A stretch of DNA of 64,000 bases from Candidatus Phaeomarinobacter ectocarpi (GTDB lineage: Bacteria; Pseudomonadota; Alphaproteobacteria; CGMCC-115125). This document shows, in pieces, positions 32,317 to 41,409 of the stretch. The position numbers were made by a program, and so were the translations under genes. Where the stretch lies: NCBI RefSeq assembly GCF_000689395.1, contig NZ_HG966617.1, forward strand, positions 2,230,221-2,294,220, read 5' to 3'. The notes beneath the pieces are model-generated. The model was not told the origin of the DNA, ran no database searches, and saw only the letters and a list, made by a program, of their open reading frames with translations. Position 1 is the first letter of the stretch, and each line of letters begins with the position of its first letter.

Positions 32317-32488
32317 GGCAGCTACCAATGGCAAGCGTTTCCGCCATTTATGACGCTGCGTCATCTTCTTCACAAAACTCTCGTAGCTGCGTAAGCTCAT
32401 ACCTATGTGAAAAAGTGGGACTGGACGAACGGTCCCCGTGACGCTGCGCTGGCGCAGTCCGCCAGCATTGCCCTTGGAGGACACGAGA

Positions 32489-33625
32489 GTGAGCAATTCT
32501 GCCAACGACCAGACGAAATTTACCGTTGATGCGGCCTATGAAGCAGTCGCGCCGGATGATTTCGCAGCCATGATTGAAGTCGATCGGTATGGCAGCCGGT
32601 CTGATGCTTTCGACAAGATCATTTCAGCAACTCATGACCATTTCTGGGACCCGATGGACACCCGTTACATCGACTTCTCAGCACCGTTCGATATGGAAAA
32701 GGAATTCCTGTTCGATCCGGAACAAAGCTTTGAGTTGCGCACCGCGATTGGCGACAAGCTGGACGAAAAGCAGAAGATCAAACTGGTCAACCTCGACACC
32801 CAGTGGAGCCTGTCGTCCATTCTGCATGGTGAAGCAGGTGCACTCTCTCTGTCAGCATCGCTCTGCCACATCCTCAAGGACCCTGGCGCGCAGGAATACG
32901 CTGCCAACCAGACCCGTGAAGAAGCCCGTCACGTCACCGGCTTTTCCAACTACATCAAGGCCCGCTGGGGCAAGCCGGTAGCCTGTGGCCCGGCGTTGCA
33001 GAACCTGCTGGTAGAACTCGTGAACTCGCCCTTGGTCTGGAAGAAGATCGTCGGCATGCAGATGATGGTTGAAGGCCTCGCCATGGGCGCCTTTGCCTCC
33101 TTCTACCGCTGGGGCCGTGACCCTCTGCTGGTGAAACTCATGCAGCTCACCATGACGGACGAAGCGTTCCACCATAAGTTCGGCAAGATCTGGGCAGATC
33201 GCACAGTACCAAACGTACCCGCAGCAGAACGCGACCAGATTGAAGACTGGGCATGGGAAGTGTTCCAGGTCCTGCTCTACAATCTGGGATCACCCGAGCA
33301 GAAGAAGCACATCTACGCCGAAGTCGGCCTCGACTGGGAGTGGGTACAGGGCGCTTTCATGGAAGCCCTGACCGACGAAAACATTCAGGAAGACATGAAA
33401 GAGCAGGAAAACATTTTCCGTGTTCTGATCAAGACACTTCTCAACGCAGGCATCATCACGGATCGTACGGCATCAAACTATGCAGCCTTTGTGAATATCA
33501 AGGAATTGCAGCAGGAGGGCGACCGTATGGTTGGCGACGAAATCGCTGAAGACGGCATCAAATTCCTGCTCGGCATCAATGGCGGCAAGTTTGTGTCACC
33601 AAATTCGACGGTGGCCGCTGAATAG
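32489..33625 (+). CDS. Ferritin-like diiron-carboxylate protein of unknown substrate
   Basis: A 378-residue helical protein. The full diiron ligand set can be read: Glu115 (HGEAGAL), Glu145 and His148 (EEARH), Glu195 (MMVEGLAMG), Glu225 and His228 (DEAFHH), the E-ExxH-E-ExxH order of R2-like oxygenases and oxidases. Overall it resembles ribonucleotide-reductase-like ferritin-fold proteins, but it lacks features of true NrdB that I can recognise. Start is GTG 32489 with GGAGG eight bases upstream; the longer frame starts inside the leader. Monocistronic, with its own terminator. Confidence 0.85.
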   Translation: MSNSANDQTKFTVDAAYEAVAPDDFAAMIEVDRYGSRSDAFDKIISATHDHFWDPMDTRYIDFSAPFDMEKEFLFDPEQSFELRTAIGDKLDEKQKIKLVNLDTQWSLSSILHGEAGALSLSASLCHILKDPGAQEYAANQTREEARHVTGFSNYIKARWGKPVACGPALQNLLVELVNSPLVWKKIVGMQMMVEGLAMGAFASFYRWGRDPLLVKLMQLTMTDEAFHHKFGKIWADRTVPNVPAAERDQIEDWAWEVFQVLLYNLGSPEQKKHIYAEVGLDWEWVQGAFMEALTDENIQEDMKEQENIFRVLIKTLLNAGIITDRTASNYAAFVNIKELQQEGDRMVGDEIAEDGIKFLLGINGGKFVSPNSTVAAE

Positions 33626-33666
33626 CACCAGCCTGGGATGCGTTGAGTCTCATGCAGAAGTTATTG

Positions 33667-33696
33667 AAAGGCGGCACCTTGAATGTGCCGCCTTTT
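33667..33696 (+). terminator. Terminator of the diiron gene
   Basis: 11-bp perfect stem (AAAGGCGGCAC with its complement), 7-base loop, four T residues. It begins 41 bases after the stop codon. Confidence 0.9.
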
Positions 33697-33933
33697 AGCG
33701 TGTGTCAGTCCAAATTCAAAACTGTGCCCATACCGTAAAAAAAGTGCCGACGTGTCCTTTTAAACGACATCAAACGGTGTAGCCTTCGACACACCTATTA
33801 ATTGAAACCCGTTTTTACTTTTAACCTTTGATTGCAATTTCGGAATTCAGTATCGACCACCAATAAGCGGGAACGGCGCTGCGCCAGTATTGATGCAGTC
33901 CGATCTCAAAATTGATTTTAAACGGACCACAGG
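33697..33933. other. AT-rich promoter region
   Basis: Between the diiron terminator and the next small ORF lies an AT-rich stretch with several A and T runs and no ORF. It is probably the promoter of the small gene at 33934. I see no dyad worth naming. Confidence 0.4.
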
Positions 33934-34161
33934 ATGAGTTGTCCCAGTATGCCTGAGAAAAATACTTCAAAAGCGTCCAGAAAGGACGCTACAAAGCTCA
34001 AGCGAAATTTTGAAGACTGCGAAGCTGGCCTGCGTCACATTTGTGTTCAGCTGGCCGCAGTTCAACATTTGTTCAACGACGCGGAATTCGCCGACCTGAT
34101 GCACCATGTGGATGCACTCGAAACGGCGATGCGCGACAAAAAGAAGTTGATTGGCGCCTAA
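33934..34161 (+). CDS. Small hypothetical helical protein
   Basis: A 75-residue basic protein. After a polar lysine-rich start, residues 22-70 look like two amphipathic helices (LKRNFEDCEAGLRHICVQLAAVQHLF; FADLMHHVDALETAMRDKKK, cited in part). No signal or membrane segment. The start is unsure: ATG at 33934 has no spaced ribosome binding site, ATG at 33949 could use AGGATGAG. Composition is protein-like, so I keep it, with caution. Confidence 0.45.
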   Translation: MSCPSMPEKNTSKASRKDATKLKRNFEDCEAGLRHICVQLAAVQHLFNDAEFADLMHHVDALETAMRDKKKLIGA

Positions 34162-34345
34162 AGTATTCCATTGCCCCTTCGGGTAGCGCCAATTTCTGCT
34201 CCGCTATGCAAGTTGCGGGTCCGGCAACTCCATGCCAGACTCATCGACCATGCATGCGCAGACGCAAGCAGACATGATCTGATTGGGCACAGGGCAGCGA
34301 ATGAAACGGCAGCACGGCGTGTTTGCGGTTTTTTGTCAGGGCTGG

Positions 34346-35350
34346 ATGAGCGAGACGCTCACCGGCTACGTATTCCCACGATCTAAGCATCGATCCATCA
34401 CCAGGTTTTTCTCGACTGCCCTTCTGGTCAGCATGTTCGTCACGCCAGGCGCCTACGCAAATGTGTTCGATCACGACGACCGCCGTCCATTGACGGCAGA
34501 AGATGGATTTGACGCGGTCGGGCAAATTGCCTGCGCCAATTCAACCCGCCTGCCAATCGGCACCATCATTTCCCACGACGCCCTGCCCGATGACCGGGAC
34601 TATGAGTTGGTGGTAACCGTGGCCCACACCTTCAGAGGGCGCGGCGGTGTCATGGAAACCCGCTGTGATTTCCTGCCGGGCGGCGACCGCGAGGCGGCAA
34701 CACCCTTGCTGCATGTGGCCCTTGGCACTCTGGCACCAGGTCGCGCCTTTCATCATGACTGGGCCGTCGCAATCGTCTCCGGTCGCCTGTCGGATACCCA
34801 CGGCGCCTTGCCGCTGGCAACCCTGACGGAAGATGACCTCCTGTCCCTTGAAGAGGCCGGTGCCCGCTATTCTCTGGTTGGCAAAAACGGTGAGCGCCCC
34901 CGCATGCTCATCTCGGAAAATTGCGCGCCGGTCCCAAAACTGCATTGGCATCACGGTTTCTTTTCGCAAGGCGAGCTGAACCACAATTGCGACATGATCC
35001 CCGGCTGGTCCGGTGGCCCCCTGGTGATGACCCTCGACGGCAAACGCCAGATCGTTGGGATCAATGCCACGGAACTCAACGGCATCATCCACAAGGTCGG
35101 AGATGCCTATCACCCACGCATGTTTGCCAACACGGCGATCCGCTATACCGGAGACTTCAAGGCCACCGTTGCCCGCATGGCGGCAACACCGTTCAACACG
35201 GATGATCTTTCTGCCAACCTGCACGAACAGGTGGCGTTCTCCGTCCTGCCTGAATCCTGCAAGGGCGAAGCGGACATGACCTCCAACATTCTGGATTTGG
35301 CCGTGGAGATTGCTCTGGTGCCGGCCGCAGAAGCCAGGTCATTTTGCTGA
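34346..35350 (+). CDS. Secreted trypsin-like serine protease
   Basis: A 334-residue S1-family protein. Signal peptide: basic SKHRSITR, hydrophobic core to about 37, AYA cleavage. The triad is His94 (TVAHTF), Asp138 (HHDWAVAIV) and Ser222 (GWSGGPLV). Five or six cysteines in the mature part suggest disulfides and periplasmic or extracellular location. It lacks PDZ domains, so it is not DegP-like. Start ATG 34346 is preceded by AGGG. Its stop overlaps the end of the convergent TetR gene by 12 bases. Confidence 0.85.
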   Translation: MSETLTGYVFPRSKHRSITRFFSTALLVSMFVTPGAYANVFDHDDRRPLTAEDGFDAVGQIACANSTRLPIGTIISHDALPDDRDYELVVTVAHTFRGRGGVMETRCDFLPGGDREAATPLLHVALGTLAPGRAFHHDWAVAIVSGRLSDTHGALPLATLTEDDLLSLEEAGARYSLVGKNGERPRMLISENCAPVPKLHWHHGFFSQGELNHNCDMIPGWSGGPLVMTLDGKRQIVGINATELNGIIHKVGDAYHPRMFANTAIRYTGDFKATVARMAATPFNTDDLSANLHEQVAFSVLPESCKGEADMTSNILDLAVEIALVPAAEARSFC

Positions 35351-35962
35351 CGCCGCAGCACTCCCGGACATGATACCTGCCACCATTGTGGAGAGCGCCT
35401 GACCGTAGGCCTCGCGTGCAGCCTTGGGGTCCGGCGACGAAGCAATCGCCTGCCCGGCCTGGATCATCGCACCGGACATCACCACCGCAATCGGCTCCAG
35501 CGGTTGGGGGGCCAGCGTGCCGTCATCGAGCAGATGCTGAAGAGCATGCTCCACCAGCACACGATTGACCGGTTCAACCAGACCTTTCCAGGTATCGAAG
35601 CCCAGCACGGCAGGCCCGTCTCGCAACAGCAGCCGCTGAATATCCGGTTCCAGAAACGCGTCCAGCATCATTTCAAGGCCAACGGCCAGGTCTTCGCGGT
35701 CATTGGTGATCCGCGCCATGGTTTCTTCAAACACACGCAGGCCAAGCGCCTCAGCCAGCTCCCGGCACAGGGCCAGAAACAGATCCTGCTTGTCAGCGAA
35801 TTGATAATAGAGCGCACCGCGGGTGACACCGGCGCGAGCCACAATCTCTTCGGTGCCGGTTTCAGCGTAGCCCTTAGCCGTCATGATCTCGCGCGCTGCA
35901 TCGAGCAGCTTGCGACGATTGTCCGATGGTTTCTGGGCAGGTGCTTTTTTGGGAGAACTCAT
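35339..35962 (-). CDS. TetR/AcrR-family regulator
   Basis: A 207-residue repressor. HTH at about residues 15-62, ending GVTRGALYYQFADKQDL, the standard recognition helix and turn. The N-terminus is lysine- and proline-rich. It is divergent from the ferric-reductase-like gene, with a set of TCATACA palindromes in the 116 bases between the two starts, so autoregulation plus control of the neighbour is the natural reading. The ligand domain gives no clue to the inducer. Confidence 0.9.
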   Translation of the reverse strand: MSSPKKAPAQKPSDNRRKLLDAAREIMTAKGYAETGTEEIVARAGVTRGALYYQFADKQDLFLALCRELAEALGLRVFEETMARITNDREDLAVGLEMMLDAFLEPDIQRLLLRDGPAVLGFDTWKGLVEPVNRVLVEHALQHLLDDGTLAPQPLEPIAVVMSGAMIQAGQAIASSPDPKAAREAYGQALSTMVAGIMSGSAAASAK

Positions 35963-35973
35963 GGAGCCTGTCT

Positions 35974-36061
35974 TATCATACAGTCAGTATCATACACCTT
36001 GTATGATTTTGGGTTTTGCGCTACCAGTTTCATACAGCCTGTATGAAACTGGTAGCGCAAA
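35974..36061. promoter_or_regulatory. Cluster of TCATACA operators, one with 23-bp perfect arms
   Basis: TATCATACA occurs as a direct repeat at 35974 and 35988. The second copy is also the left arm of ATCATACA-CCT-TGTATGAT (35989-36007). A second palindrome runs from 36015 to 36061: arms of 23 bases, perfectly complementary, with one central base (36038); its core is TTTCATACAG-C-CTGTATGAAA. The core matches the first dyad and is a likely TetR site. The outer parts of the arms go well beyond an operator and could form an RNA hairpin in the leader of the plus-strand gene. Confidence 0.8.
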
Positions 36062-36078
36062 CCGCGAAAGTGCTCTCC

Positions 36079-36735
36079 ATGTCTGACATCCAGCCAGCAG
36101 TCCAACCGGTTGCCACCGCCCGGTCGCAACGCGCACGCCTGCCATTCGCCGCACGGCCTGTGGTGCCCCTTCTGTTGGCCGGCTTTGCAGCCTTGTCAGC
36201 CGTGGCCTTCGGCCTCTCAACCGGTGACACAGCGCTGGATGGTTGGCGGCTCGCCACGCGCTATACGGCACGTGTCGCGGCGGTGGTCTTCTTGCTGGTG
36301 TTTGTGACCGGCCCCATCTGGCGCGGTTTCAGGGCCGGCTGGATCGCGCCCTTCATGCGCAACAGGCGCTATTGGGGGCTCGGCTTTGCCCTCGCCCACA
36401 TCATTCACCTGGGGGCCCTGACAACCTTTTTTATTGTCAGTCCTGAAGACCCCTCCCTCATCACCATCCTGGGGGGCGGCCTGGCCTATGTGCTGATCGT
36501 GGCGATGGCGGCGACGTCCAACAACTGGTCGCAGCGCACCCTTGGTCCGTGGTGGCACCGCCTGCATATGGTCGGCATGATCTACATCTGGATCATTTTT
36601 GCCCAAAGCTATGCGGGCCGTCTGGAAGACCCCGAAAGCATCTGGACCGGTATTTTCGGGTCCAGCCTGTTTGCGGCCGCCATGCTGCTCCGCATCGGCG
36701 TGCGCCTGACCGCCCAAATGCGGTCACAAAGCTGA
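36079..36735 (+). CDS. Ferric-reductase-like transmembrane protein
   Basis: A 218-residue inner-membrane protein with about six helices. Histidines sit within helices as in the ferric reductase-like domain (PF01794): FALAHIIHLGALTTFF and WWHRLHMVGMIYIW, consistent with b-type haem ligation as in MsrQ/YedZ. No flavin or NADPH domain and no adjacent MsrP. Start ATG 36079 (MSDIQPAVQ); an alternative TTG at 36016 would place the palindrome in the coding sequence. Regulated probably by the divergent TetR. Confidence 0.82.
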   Translation: MSDIQPAVQPVATARSQRARLPFAARPVVPLLLAGFAALSAVAFGLSTGDTALDGWRLATRYTARVAAVVFLLVFVTGPIWRGFRAGWIAPFMRNRRYWGLGFALAHIIHLGALTTFFIVSPEDPSLITILGGGLAYVLIVAMAATSNNWSQRTLGPWWHRLHMVGMIYIWIIFAQSYAGRLEDPESIWTGIFGSSLFAAAMLLRIGVRLTAQMRSQS

Positions 36736-36907
36736 CCCCCAAGGCCACACAAGAGGCCAAACCAGAGATGACGCAGGAGATTCCAGCGGTATAGTAGCTC
36801 CCGAAAAGACCATTATCTCCCGCACAGCAAGAGAGGCACCCGCTCAACGAGGTGCGCCTTTTCCATACACAGGGTGATGCGGGCTAAACATATTCAGGGA
36901 GACGACC

Positions 36908-38539
36908 ATGGCCTGGAATTTCGGCGACATTCTCGACACCATTGCCCCGGTACTGCCGGGCGACAAACCGGCCCTCATCCATATTGCAAAAGACGGCACG
37001 GCCCAGATCAAGTCCTGGGCAGAGTTTGACGCCCGCTCGAACAACCTTGCCCGCCAGCTGATCGAGCGCGGCGCCAAGCCCGGGGACAAAGTCGCGTTCT
37101 ACATGCGCAACCGCTCCGAATATGCCGAGCTGCTGGCCGCCTGCTTCAAGGCGCGCCTCACCCACGTCAACGTCAACTACCGCTACCAGCCCGACGAGCT
37201 GCATTACATCTTCGACAACTCCGACGCCCAGACCATCGTCTATGGCGAAGAGTTTGCCGACAATATTGCAGAACTTAAACAGCGCCTCGGCAAGGTCGGC
37301 ACCTTCCTCGAAGTAACGGCAGGCACACCGGCCAATGATTTCGCAGACCGCTACGAAGACCTCACCAAGATCGGCAATGGCGGCGCCCTGGGCATCGAAC
37401 GCTCCGGCGACGATCAGCTGTTCCTGTACACCGGCGGCACCACCGGCATGCCCAAAGGCGTGATGTGGCCCGCAGATGATCTGCGCGAAGCCCAGCTCTA
37501 TGCCCTGCGGGCCTTGGGAGAAGTACCCGAAACCCTTGAGGCGCTTGCTGCGGCCATCAAGGAAACCGGCACCGGCGCCGGCCCGTTCATTCCCGCCTGC
37601 CCCATGATGCACGGCACCGGCCTCTTTACTGCCATCGGCAACATGATGAATGGCGGCTGCATCGTCACGCTCGACAACGAGAACCTTGATCCCCACGCCA
37701 TCTGGAAGGCCGTGAACGATTACAAGGTCGAGCAGATCGCCATCGTCGGTGACACCTTCGCCAAGCCCATGCTCAAGGCGTTGGAAGATGAACCCGGCAA
37801 ATACGATCTGTCGTCGCTGGTCAGCATCATTTCCTCCGGCGTCATGTGGTCCCTCGAAGTAAAGCGCGACATGATTCCGCACATGCCTCAAGCCATGTTG
37901 ATGGACAGCTTTGGCTCCTCGGAAGGCATCGGTTTTGGTAGCTCGATCTTTACCGCCGACGGCGAAGTCAAAACCGCCAAGTTCCAGATCGGCGAACGCT
38001 GCAAGGTGTTTGATGAAAACGATCAGGAAGTGCAGCCCGGCTCCGGCAAATCCGGTGTCATCGCCGTCGCCCAGCCCATTCCCCTTGGCTACTACAAGGA
38101 CGAGGAAAAGACGGCCAAAACCTTCCGCACCATCAACGGCATGCGCTACTCGATCCCCGGCGATTTCTGCACCGTGGAAGAAGACGGCACCCTGACCCTG
38201 CTGGGACGTGGCTCGGTCTGCATCAACACCGGCGGCGAAAAGGTCTACCCCGAAGAAGTCGAAGAAGCGCTCAAGACGCACCCCGCCGTCGAAGACGCAC
38301 TTGTGGTTGGCCTGCCGGATGATAAATGGGGTCAGGCCATCACCGGCGTCATCACCATGGCCTCAGGCGAGTCCGCTGACGAAGCAGCACTGATTGCCCA
38401 TGTGAAGGACAACCTGGCCCACTACAAGGCACCCAAGCGCGTGCTCGTGGCAGCCGATGCCTTCCGTGCACCAAACGGCAAAGCGGACTACAAGGGCGCA
38501 ACAAGTTTCGCCAAACAGGAGCTAGGCATTGCCAGCTGA
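36908..38539 (+). CDS. Acyl-CoA synthetase (AMP-dependent ligase)
   Basis: A 543-residue ANL-superfamily enzyme that activates a carboxylic acid as its CoA thioester via the acyl-adenylate. P-loop LYTGGTTGMPKGV (about 177-189), the GSSEGIG adenine-site motif, LLGRGSVCINTGGEKVYPEEVE hinge, and the catalytic Lys in PNGKADYKG near the end. Sequence character is that of FadD3/FadD17-like ligases for bulky or ring-derived acids rather than long-chain fatty acids; that is an impression. Its end overlaps the TTG start of the next gene. Confidence 0.93.
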   Translation: MAWNFGDILDTIAPVLPGDKPALIHIAKDGTAQIKSWAEFDARSNNLARQLIERGAKPGDKVAFYMRNRSEYAELLAACFKARLTHVNVNYRYQPDELHYIFDNSDAQTIVYGEEFADNIAELKQRLGKVGTFLEVTAGTPANDFADRYEDLTKIGNGGALGIERSGDDQLFLYTGGTTGMPKGVMWPADDLREAQLYALRALGEVPETLEALAAAIKETGTGAGPFIPACPMMHGTGLFTAIGNMMNGGCIVTLDNENLDPHAIWKAVNDYKVEQIAIVGDTFAKPMLKALEDEPGKYDLSSLVSIISSGVMWSLEVKRDMIPHMPQAMLMDSFGSSEGIGFGSSIFTADGEVKTAKFQIGERCKVFDENDQEVQPGSGKSGVIAVAQPIPLGYYKDEEKTAKTFRTINGMRYSIPGDFCTVEEDGTLTLLGRGSVCINTGGEKVYPEEVEEALKTHPAVEDALVVGLPDDKWGQAITGVITMASGESADEAALIAHVKDNLAHYKAPKRVLVAADAFRAPNGKADYKGATSFAKQELGIAS

Positions 38540-39668: not shown

Positions 39669-40508
39669 ATGAGTGACACGACCATCATCGCGATCCTGTT
39701 GCTGACAGCGATCATGCACGCCACATGGAACGCCGCCCTCAAGACCGGTGCTGACCGGGTGCTGGATATGGCGGCCATGCGCATGTCGGGCATCGTATTC
39801 GCGGCGATTGTCATTCCACTTGCGCCCATGCCTGCACCGGAAGCCTGGCCCTTCCTTATCGCCAGTGCCGTGGCGCACATGTTTTATTATGCATGCCTCA
39901 TCTCGTCCTATCAGCGCGGTGACCTCAGTCAGGTCTATCCGATCGCCCGAGGGTCCGCCCCCCTGCTTGTGGCTCTCGCCGCCTATCTCACCATCAGCGA
40001 AACACCAACACCTGTCGGCCTTGCCGGTGTCATCGTTATCTCCATCGGCATCATCGTGGCGGGGACCGGCGCCTTTCGTGAAAACCTGCACGCCATTGGC
40101 TTTGCCCTTCTGACCGGCCTGTCGATTGCGTCCTACTCCCTGCTCGGTGGCCTCGGCGTCCGCGAGTCCGGCACGGTGCTCGGCTATGCGGCGTGGCTGG
40201 AGCTGCTCTCCTGCGCGCCGTTTATTGCCTTTGCCCTTGTCCGCAGGAGGCACTTCGTTGTGCCCTACGTGTCCAGCAAGGTGGCCTACCGCAATCTCGT
40301 GCTCGGCTTTGGCAGCGTCCTGTCCTACCTCATTGTCCTGTGGGCCATGACCCTGCTCCCTCTCGCAACCGTGACAGCCACCCGCGAAACCAGTGCCATT
40401 TTTGCGGCCCTCGCCGGAACGATCCTGATGAAAGAACCTTTTGCCGGCCGCCGCATCATCGCCGCGGGCTTCGTGACGATTGGCATCACGCTGCTGGTGC
40501 TTGGCTAA
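39669..40508 (+). CDS. EamA/DMT-superfamily transporter, copy 1
   Basis: A 279-residue inner-membrane protein of about ten helices in two EamA halves. The first half has MHATWNAALKTGADRVLDM and SSYQRGDLSQVYPIARG; the second ends ATRETSAIFAALAGTILMKEPFAGR, partly quoted. It aligns without gaps to the next gene's product over its full length, at about two thirds to three quarters identity by eye. These transporters usually export metabolites or amino acids. Likely arose by tandem duplication. Confidence 0.9.
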   Translation: MSDTTIIAILLLTAIMHATWNAALKTGADRVLDMAAMRMSGIVFAAIVIPLAPMPAPEAWPFLIASAVAHMFYYACLISSYQRGDLSQVYPIARGSAPLLVALAAYLTISETPTPVGLAGVIVISIGIIVAGTGAFRENLHAIGFALLTGLSIASYSLLGGLGVRESGTVLGYAAWLELLSCAPFIAFALVRRRHFVVPYVSSKVAYRNLVLGFGSVLSYLIVLWAMTLLPLATVTATRETSAIFAALAGTILMKEPFAGRRIIAAGFVTIGITLLVLG

Positions 40509-40569: not shown

Positions 40570-41409
40570 ATGGCCGACACAACCATCATCATAATCCTGC
40601 TGCTGACCGCGCTCCTCCACGCCACATGGAACGTCGCCCTCAAAACCGGCACGGACCGGGTACTGGACATGGCGGCGATCCGGGTGTCCGGCGTCCTGTT
40701 CGCAGCGGTTGTAATTCCGCTGACCCCAATGCCTGCCGCAGCCTCATGGCCGCCATTGATCGCCAGCGCAATCGTGTACATGGCCTATTACGGCTTCCTC
40801 ATTTCATCCTACAAGCACGGCGATATCTCTCAGGTCTACCCGATCGCCAGAGGATCTGCCCCTTTGCTGGTGGCACTCGCAGCCTTTCTGTTTATCAACG
40901 AGACCCCCGGCTCCATTGGTCTGGCAGGAGTCGTTGTTGTGTCCCTTGGCATCGTGATTGCCGGGTCCGGCGCGTTTCAGCAAAACCTGCGCGCTGTCGC
41001 CTATGCGCTCATCACCGGACTTACGATTGCAGCAAACTCGTTTCTGGGCGGCATTGGCGTGCGCGATGCGGGAACCATTCTGGGATATTCAGCCTGGCTT
41101 GAATTGCTCACCTGTGTGCCCTTCATTGCCTTTGCCTGTGTGCGCAGGCGTGGATTTATCGCCGCCTACGCCGCCAACCCTGTGGCCAGGCGAAACGTAC
41201 TGCTTGGCTTTGGCAGCGTCTTTTCATTCCTCATCGCCCTCTGGGCCATGACGCACCTGCCCATCGCGACCGTGGCAGCAACCCGCGAAACCAGTGCAAT
41301 TTTCGCAGCACTGGCCGGGGCTGTGTTGATGAAGGAACCCTTTGCAGGCCGCCGTATTCTGGCAGCCATTCTGGTAGCCATCGGCATCACGCTTCTGGTT
41401 GTTGGCTAG
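40570..41409 (+). CDS. EamA/DMT-superfamily transporter, copy 2
   Basis: A 279-residue paralogue of the preceding protein, same length, gap-free alignment. Strictly kept blocks include ATRETSAIFAALAG, MKEPFAGRRI and QVYPIARGSAPLLVALAA. Differences cluster in helices near the middle of each half (for example AHMFYYACL versus VYMAYYGFL), which may change substrate or allow a heterodimer. About 40 bases before each start are also similar (TCCGCACAC ... TGTGTA...CG...CACCATG), so the duplication included the leader. Confidence 0.9.
   Translation: MADTTIIIILLLTALLHATWNVALKTGTDRVLDMAAIRVSGVLFAAVVIPLTPMPAAASWPPLIASAIVYMAYYGFLISSYKHGDISQVYPIARGSAPLLVALAAFLFINETPGSIGLAGVVVVSLGIVIAGSGAFQQNLRAVAYALITGLTIAANSFLGGIGVRDAGTILGYSAWLELLTCVPFIAFACVRRRGFIAAYAANPVARRNVLLGFGSVFSFLIALWAMTHLPIATVAATRETSAIFAALAGAVLMKEPFAGRRILAAILVAIGITLLVVG

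Follow-up and report, generated by a model that had tools for sequence, protein, structure and literature searches.

The window analysed here, a 64-kb stretch of the Candidatus Phaeomarinobacter ectocarpi genome, contains a 116-bp gap between two divergent genes. The minus-strand gene (35339..35962) encodes a TetR-family repressor of 207 residues, in which the TetR_N helix-turn-helix domain (PF00440, 2.7e-17) is matched above its cut-off, together with the C-terminal ligand domain TetR_C_41 (PF21351, 3.7e-23). Its nearest solved homologue is Rv0078, or EthR2 (profile E-value 1.6e-39; best structures 5wm9 and 5icj), and the similarity spans the full length, ligand domain included, as expected of the EthR2/Rv0078-like subgroup. 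The plus-strand gene (36079..36735, ATG at 36079) encodes an MsrQ/ferric-reductase-like haem membrane protein of 218 residues. Its match to the MsrQ model NF003831 is weak (2.4e-7, under that model's cut-off), that to PF01794 stands at 0.078, and its histidines H107, H110 and H163 are conserved in relatives; a protein search of the genome contigs with this protein returned no match.

The pair of tetR and MsrQ-like genes was found in 23 genomes from two families. Its carriers among the relatives are one congener (G002) and 21 members of family f10, which among public records correspond to Parvibaculum, Tepidicaulis and Rhodobiaceae. One gene order, namely AurF-like diiron protein, trypsin-like protein, TetR, MsrQ-like protein and acyl-CoA synthetase, is common to positions 32438-38539 of the window and to a genome of the other family (G012; locus L039, 499-5685), and its conservation across families suggests that the regulated gene and its neighbours share a pathway. 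Further along the window, two adjacent and similar EamA-type transporter genes (39669-40508 and 40570-41409) apparently represent a tandem duplication.

A palindrome of two layers

Within the gap, perfect arms of 23 bp each, at 36015-36037 and 36039-36061, flank the single base C36038. The next-longest perfect arm pairs recovered by an exhaustive scan of the window measure 13 bp. Ten simulations of the window by a first-order Markov model produced maximum arms of 9-13 bp; chance is thus excluded as an explanation. When a one-base bulge (TTTT versus TTT) is allowed, pairing reaches GG/CC, extending over 31 nt at 90%. The resulting 47-bp palindrome comprises an inner operator core of 17-21 bp and an outer 13 bp per arm. 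The right outer arm, CTGGTAGCGCAAA (36049..36061), repeats the left one, TTTGCGCTACCAG (36015..36027), in inverted orientation, and the left arm is the sole perfect reverse-complement match of the right-arm 13-mer in the window. A mobile or REP-like origin was ruled out, as the 3.4-Mb genome holds no second copy of the outer-arm 16-mer at up to two mismatches.

The inner layer belongs to a wider array of sites. The op2 core, TTTCATACAGCCTGTATGAAA (36028..36048), has 10-bp arms around 1 nt, while op1, ATCATACACCTTGTATGAT (35989..36007), has 8-bp arms around a 3-nt centre, and a degenerate third half-operator, TCATACAGTCAGTATCA, lies at 35976..35992. Op1 and the half-degenerate third site share a TCATACA...TGTATGA theme. 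The motif TTTCATACANNNTGTATGAAA, with up to three mismatches, occurs in the whole 3.4-Mb genome only at op1 and op2. The op2 core and the half-site are identical in the congener, op1 has a counterpart in all 23 genomes, and the inner 17-bp motif of op2 is kept in the other 21 relatives; a 21-bp core with 10-bp arms is seen in the window genome and G002, perfect arms being mostly shorter elsewhere. In every gap of G002 and the 21 f10 genomes, op1 sits on the tetR side and op2 on the side of the reductase gene, at a separation of 38-49 bp, and both conform to TCATACA-NNN-TGTATGA or come close to it. When 385 alphaproteobacterial genomes were searched by pattern, the exact motif TCATACANNNTGTATGA turned up in just five, all of which carry the tetR/reductase pair, and eight of its nine sites fall inside the gap between these genes. 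Upstream of TetR genes from other phyla that are 36-45% identical to this one, ATACAG-N-CTGTAT palindromes are present.

The conservation of op1 and op2 with the gene pair, the restricted distribution of the exact motif and the upstream palindromes in other phyla together identify the inner 17-21 bp as op2 of a conserved two-operator array, to which the divergently encoded repressor is predicted to bind. A palindromic intergenic site conserved together with its TetR regulator is characteristic of TetR/AcrR operator switches. In the literature we found no direct precedent for a CATACA-type TetR operator, subscription papers being largely outside the scope of this search. Two observations from genus g10 may be recorded here. 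In one genome (G145) the operator motif recurs at a distant second site beyond the tetR/reductase gap (contig 1, 368474-368490; L161), a possible extra regulon member. At L005 and other loci of the genus, op1 comes within a few bases of the start codon of tetR, leaving little space for the usual ribosome-binding site, and tetR may be translated there from a leaderless RNA.

The closest characterised parallel is the Rv0078 - Rv0077c pair of Mycobacterium tuberculosis, likewise a divergent regulator and target, in which two Rv0078 dimers bind a 21-bp operator composed of two 10-bp inverted repeats and overlapping both transcription starts (PMC6016246). The op2 core of the window genome and of G002 has this operator and repeat length, and would lie over the deduced plus-strand start. 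The systems differ in their targets, Rv0077c as against an MsrQ-like membrane protein, and in their layout, since M. tuberculosis has one operator whereas the window has two and a half-site, with mirrored outer arms. This comparison also qualifies the original prediction, made from the sequence alone. It had described two exactly complementary 23-bp arms around one base, a TetR operator array beside them built on TCATACA sites, and an inner part that repeats the second palindrome at 35989-36007, all of which agree with the scan and with the conservation of op1, op2 and the half-degenerate third site. It had also contrasted the 47 bp of this palindrome with TetR sites that rarely exceed 20 bp; the palindrome does measure 47 bp, but the conserved operator within it, at 17-21 bp, is of the size seen in the nearest characterised homologue.

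The outer arms in relatives and the deduced promoter

In contrast to the core, the outer arms of 13 bp each are not conserved among relatives. The congener, whose TetR is 98% identical to that of the window, retains the left outer arm with one substitution, but has a single A where the window has CTGGTAGCGCAAACC (1 nt versus 15). The distance from the op2 core to the start codon is accordingly 30 nt in the window and 16 in G002, compared with mostly 16-21 (range 9-26) in relatives with a readable start codon. The right flank begins with AAA in most outgroups, as it does in G002, and the distant relatives, like G002, lack the right outer arm. Given this absence, the left arm appears to be the older sequence, and the right arm a recent copy, in inverted orientation, of the -10 segment of the promoter. 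The simplest reading is a lineage-specific gain, although its polarity is set by one congener and distant outgroups and the right arm is known from one strain's assembly, so that an assembly error keeps a small probability.

The promoter itself can be deduced from the spacing of conserved elements. In each of the 21 f10 genomes, a spacer of exactly 17 nt separates the op1 TTGTAT from a downstream hexamer beginning with TA, mostly TATACA or TATAGA. The corresponding elements of the window are a putative -35 TTGTAT within op1 (35999-36004, plus strand) and, exactly 17 nt beyond it, a putative -10 TACCAG within the left outer arm (36022..36027, plus strand). The latter is a poor hexamer, and a strict consensus promoter scan of the region found none. 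The conserved geometry would nonetheless put the plus-strand start near 36034, inside the palindrome, so that most of the left arm would not enter the RNA. An intrinsic terminator at the palindrome was ruled out, the one terminator-like site of the region lying at 35919-35940, inside tetR.

Origin of the right arm and competing explanations

Taken together, the intergenic region probably represents ordinary gene control by a TetR-family auto- and cross-regulatory switch, with the extra arms as passengers. TetR dimers would cover the -35 element of the reductase-like gene by binding op1 and its transcription start by binding op2, and would block the plus-strand gene, and probably tetR as well, until a ligand frees the protein. 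The operator, which is itself a perfect inverted repeat, may have folded on the nascent strand during replication; the polymerase would then have copied the left flank, with its -10 region, as a reverse complement before rejoining the normal template, so that in the window's lineage an operator of 21 bp grew into a palindrome of 47 bp. We have good confidence in this overall model, in which op2 was recently mirrored outward by a template switch and the outer arms stand outside the regulatory switch, being likely neutral or slightly modulating. Hairpin-templated switching best explains a derived arm that is the reverse complement of a pre-existing flank, the left arm being present and the right absent in G002. 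The return point is not clean: the copy has three A and the source four, and G002 lacks the CC that precedes GCG.

Template switching at quasi-palindromes is documented in Escherichia coli (PMC7202029) and can make perfect stems in one event (PMC8794818). As in those cases, a short inverted repeat would here have become longer and more perfect through a reverse-complement copy of one flank. Those cases concern a reporter and an RNA gene; the present one is seen by species comparison at a repressor operator. We found no direct precedent for operator evolution by template switching in the literature, with subscription papers again largely beyond the search.

The comparison with relatives bears on two readings in which the long palindrome is not a recent accident. 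Were it ancestral in the genus, G002 would have lost the right arm by deletion; the locus is available from a single congener, long palindromes are deletion-prone, and deletion at palindromes is common in general. However, the right flank of G002 (TGTATGAAAA...) and its op2-to-start distance agree with the outgroups, a clean deletion finds no short direct repeat to account for it and would call for an additional A, so we regard this history as improbable. The original prediction had held that perfect arms of this length are unstable if neither selected nor young, which was right insofar as the right outer arm is lineage-specific and so young; the alignment of relatives that it proposed found that arm missing elsewhere, but the left one present in G002. 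It had further suggested that a single element may work at two levels, selection having retained the outer arms because the leader RNA of the reductase-like gene forms a hairpin from them; this reading fared worse. The complete repeat, if transcribed, would form a highly stable fold (-35.1 kcal/mol, z -11.9), and extended arms also occur in a different genus. Yet a start at about 36034 would leave out nearly all of the left arm, RNA from this position folds no better than shuffles (z +0.7), no T-run follows the palindrome, and neither the sequence nor the presence of the arms is conserved. No Rfam family reached its gathering score, the sub-threshold matches being microRNA hairpins only, as expected of any perfect hairpin. 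With the right arm missing in relatives and the deduced start inside the palindrome, there is no conserved or co-varying stem in the transcript of the kind that marks a structured leader RNA or attenuator. An RNA role is disfavoured, and we consider it very unlikely.

Symmetric arms might also be under selection at the DNA level, for instance by seating further TetR dimers or by extruding a cruciform to adjust repression; we hold this to be unlikely. The loading of two Rv0078 dimers on one operator (PMC6016246) speaks for it, as do extended, co-varying arms in genus g10. There, G390, G012 and G145 carry a different and shorter extension outside the core (GATCAAAA, GATCAAAT and GATCCAAT), each with a perfectly matching right arm. 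On the other hand, this extension and that of the window have no sequence in common, and two mismatches are tolerated in that of G389, while G391 and G387 lack an extension. Across the op2 flanks of the 18 other relatives, 54 of 234 pairs match (23%), where reshuffling of partners gives 46 +/- 5.5, an excess of symmetry past the core that is not significant. On the TetR tree, where G389 groups with G145 with modest support, the small number of g10 cases fits a gain of the extension within the genus, followed by mismatch and later re-pairing in G145.

Implications for operator evolution

Since the g10 extension differs from that of the window, lengthening occurred at least twice. The two lineages, together with the co-varying arms in g10, raise the tentative idea that repressor operators are hot spots of template switching which repeatedly lengthen and re-symmetrise their flanks. 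The locus provides a well-supported operator motif for a tetR/MsrQ-like pair widespread in Parvibaculum and related bacteria. It is also a natural example, with a congener to set the polarity, in which a palindromic bacterial operator has grown in apparently one step, and it cautions that a very long perfect palindrome beside a TetR gene need not signify a larger operator or an RNA switch. If the idea of recurrent switching is true, palindromic operators may grow and stay symmetric through mutation bias, and not through selection alone.
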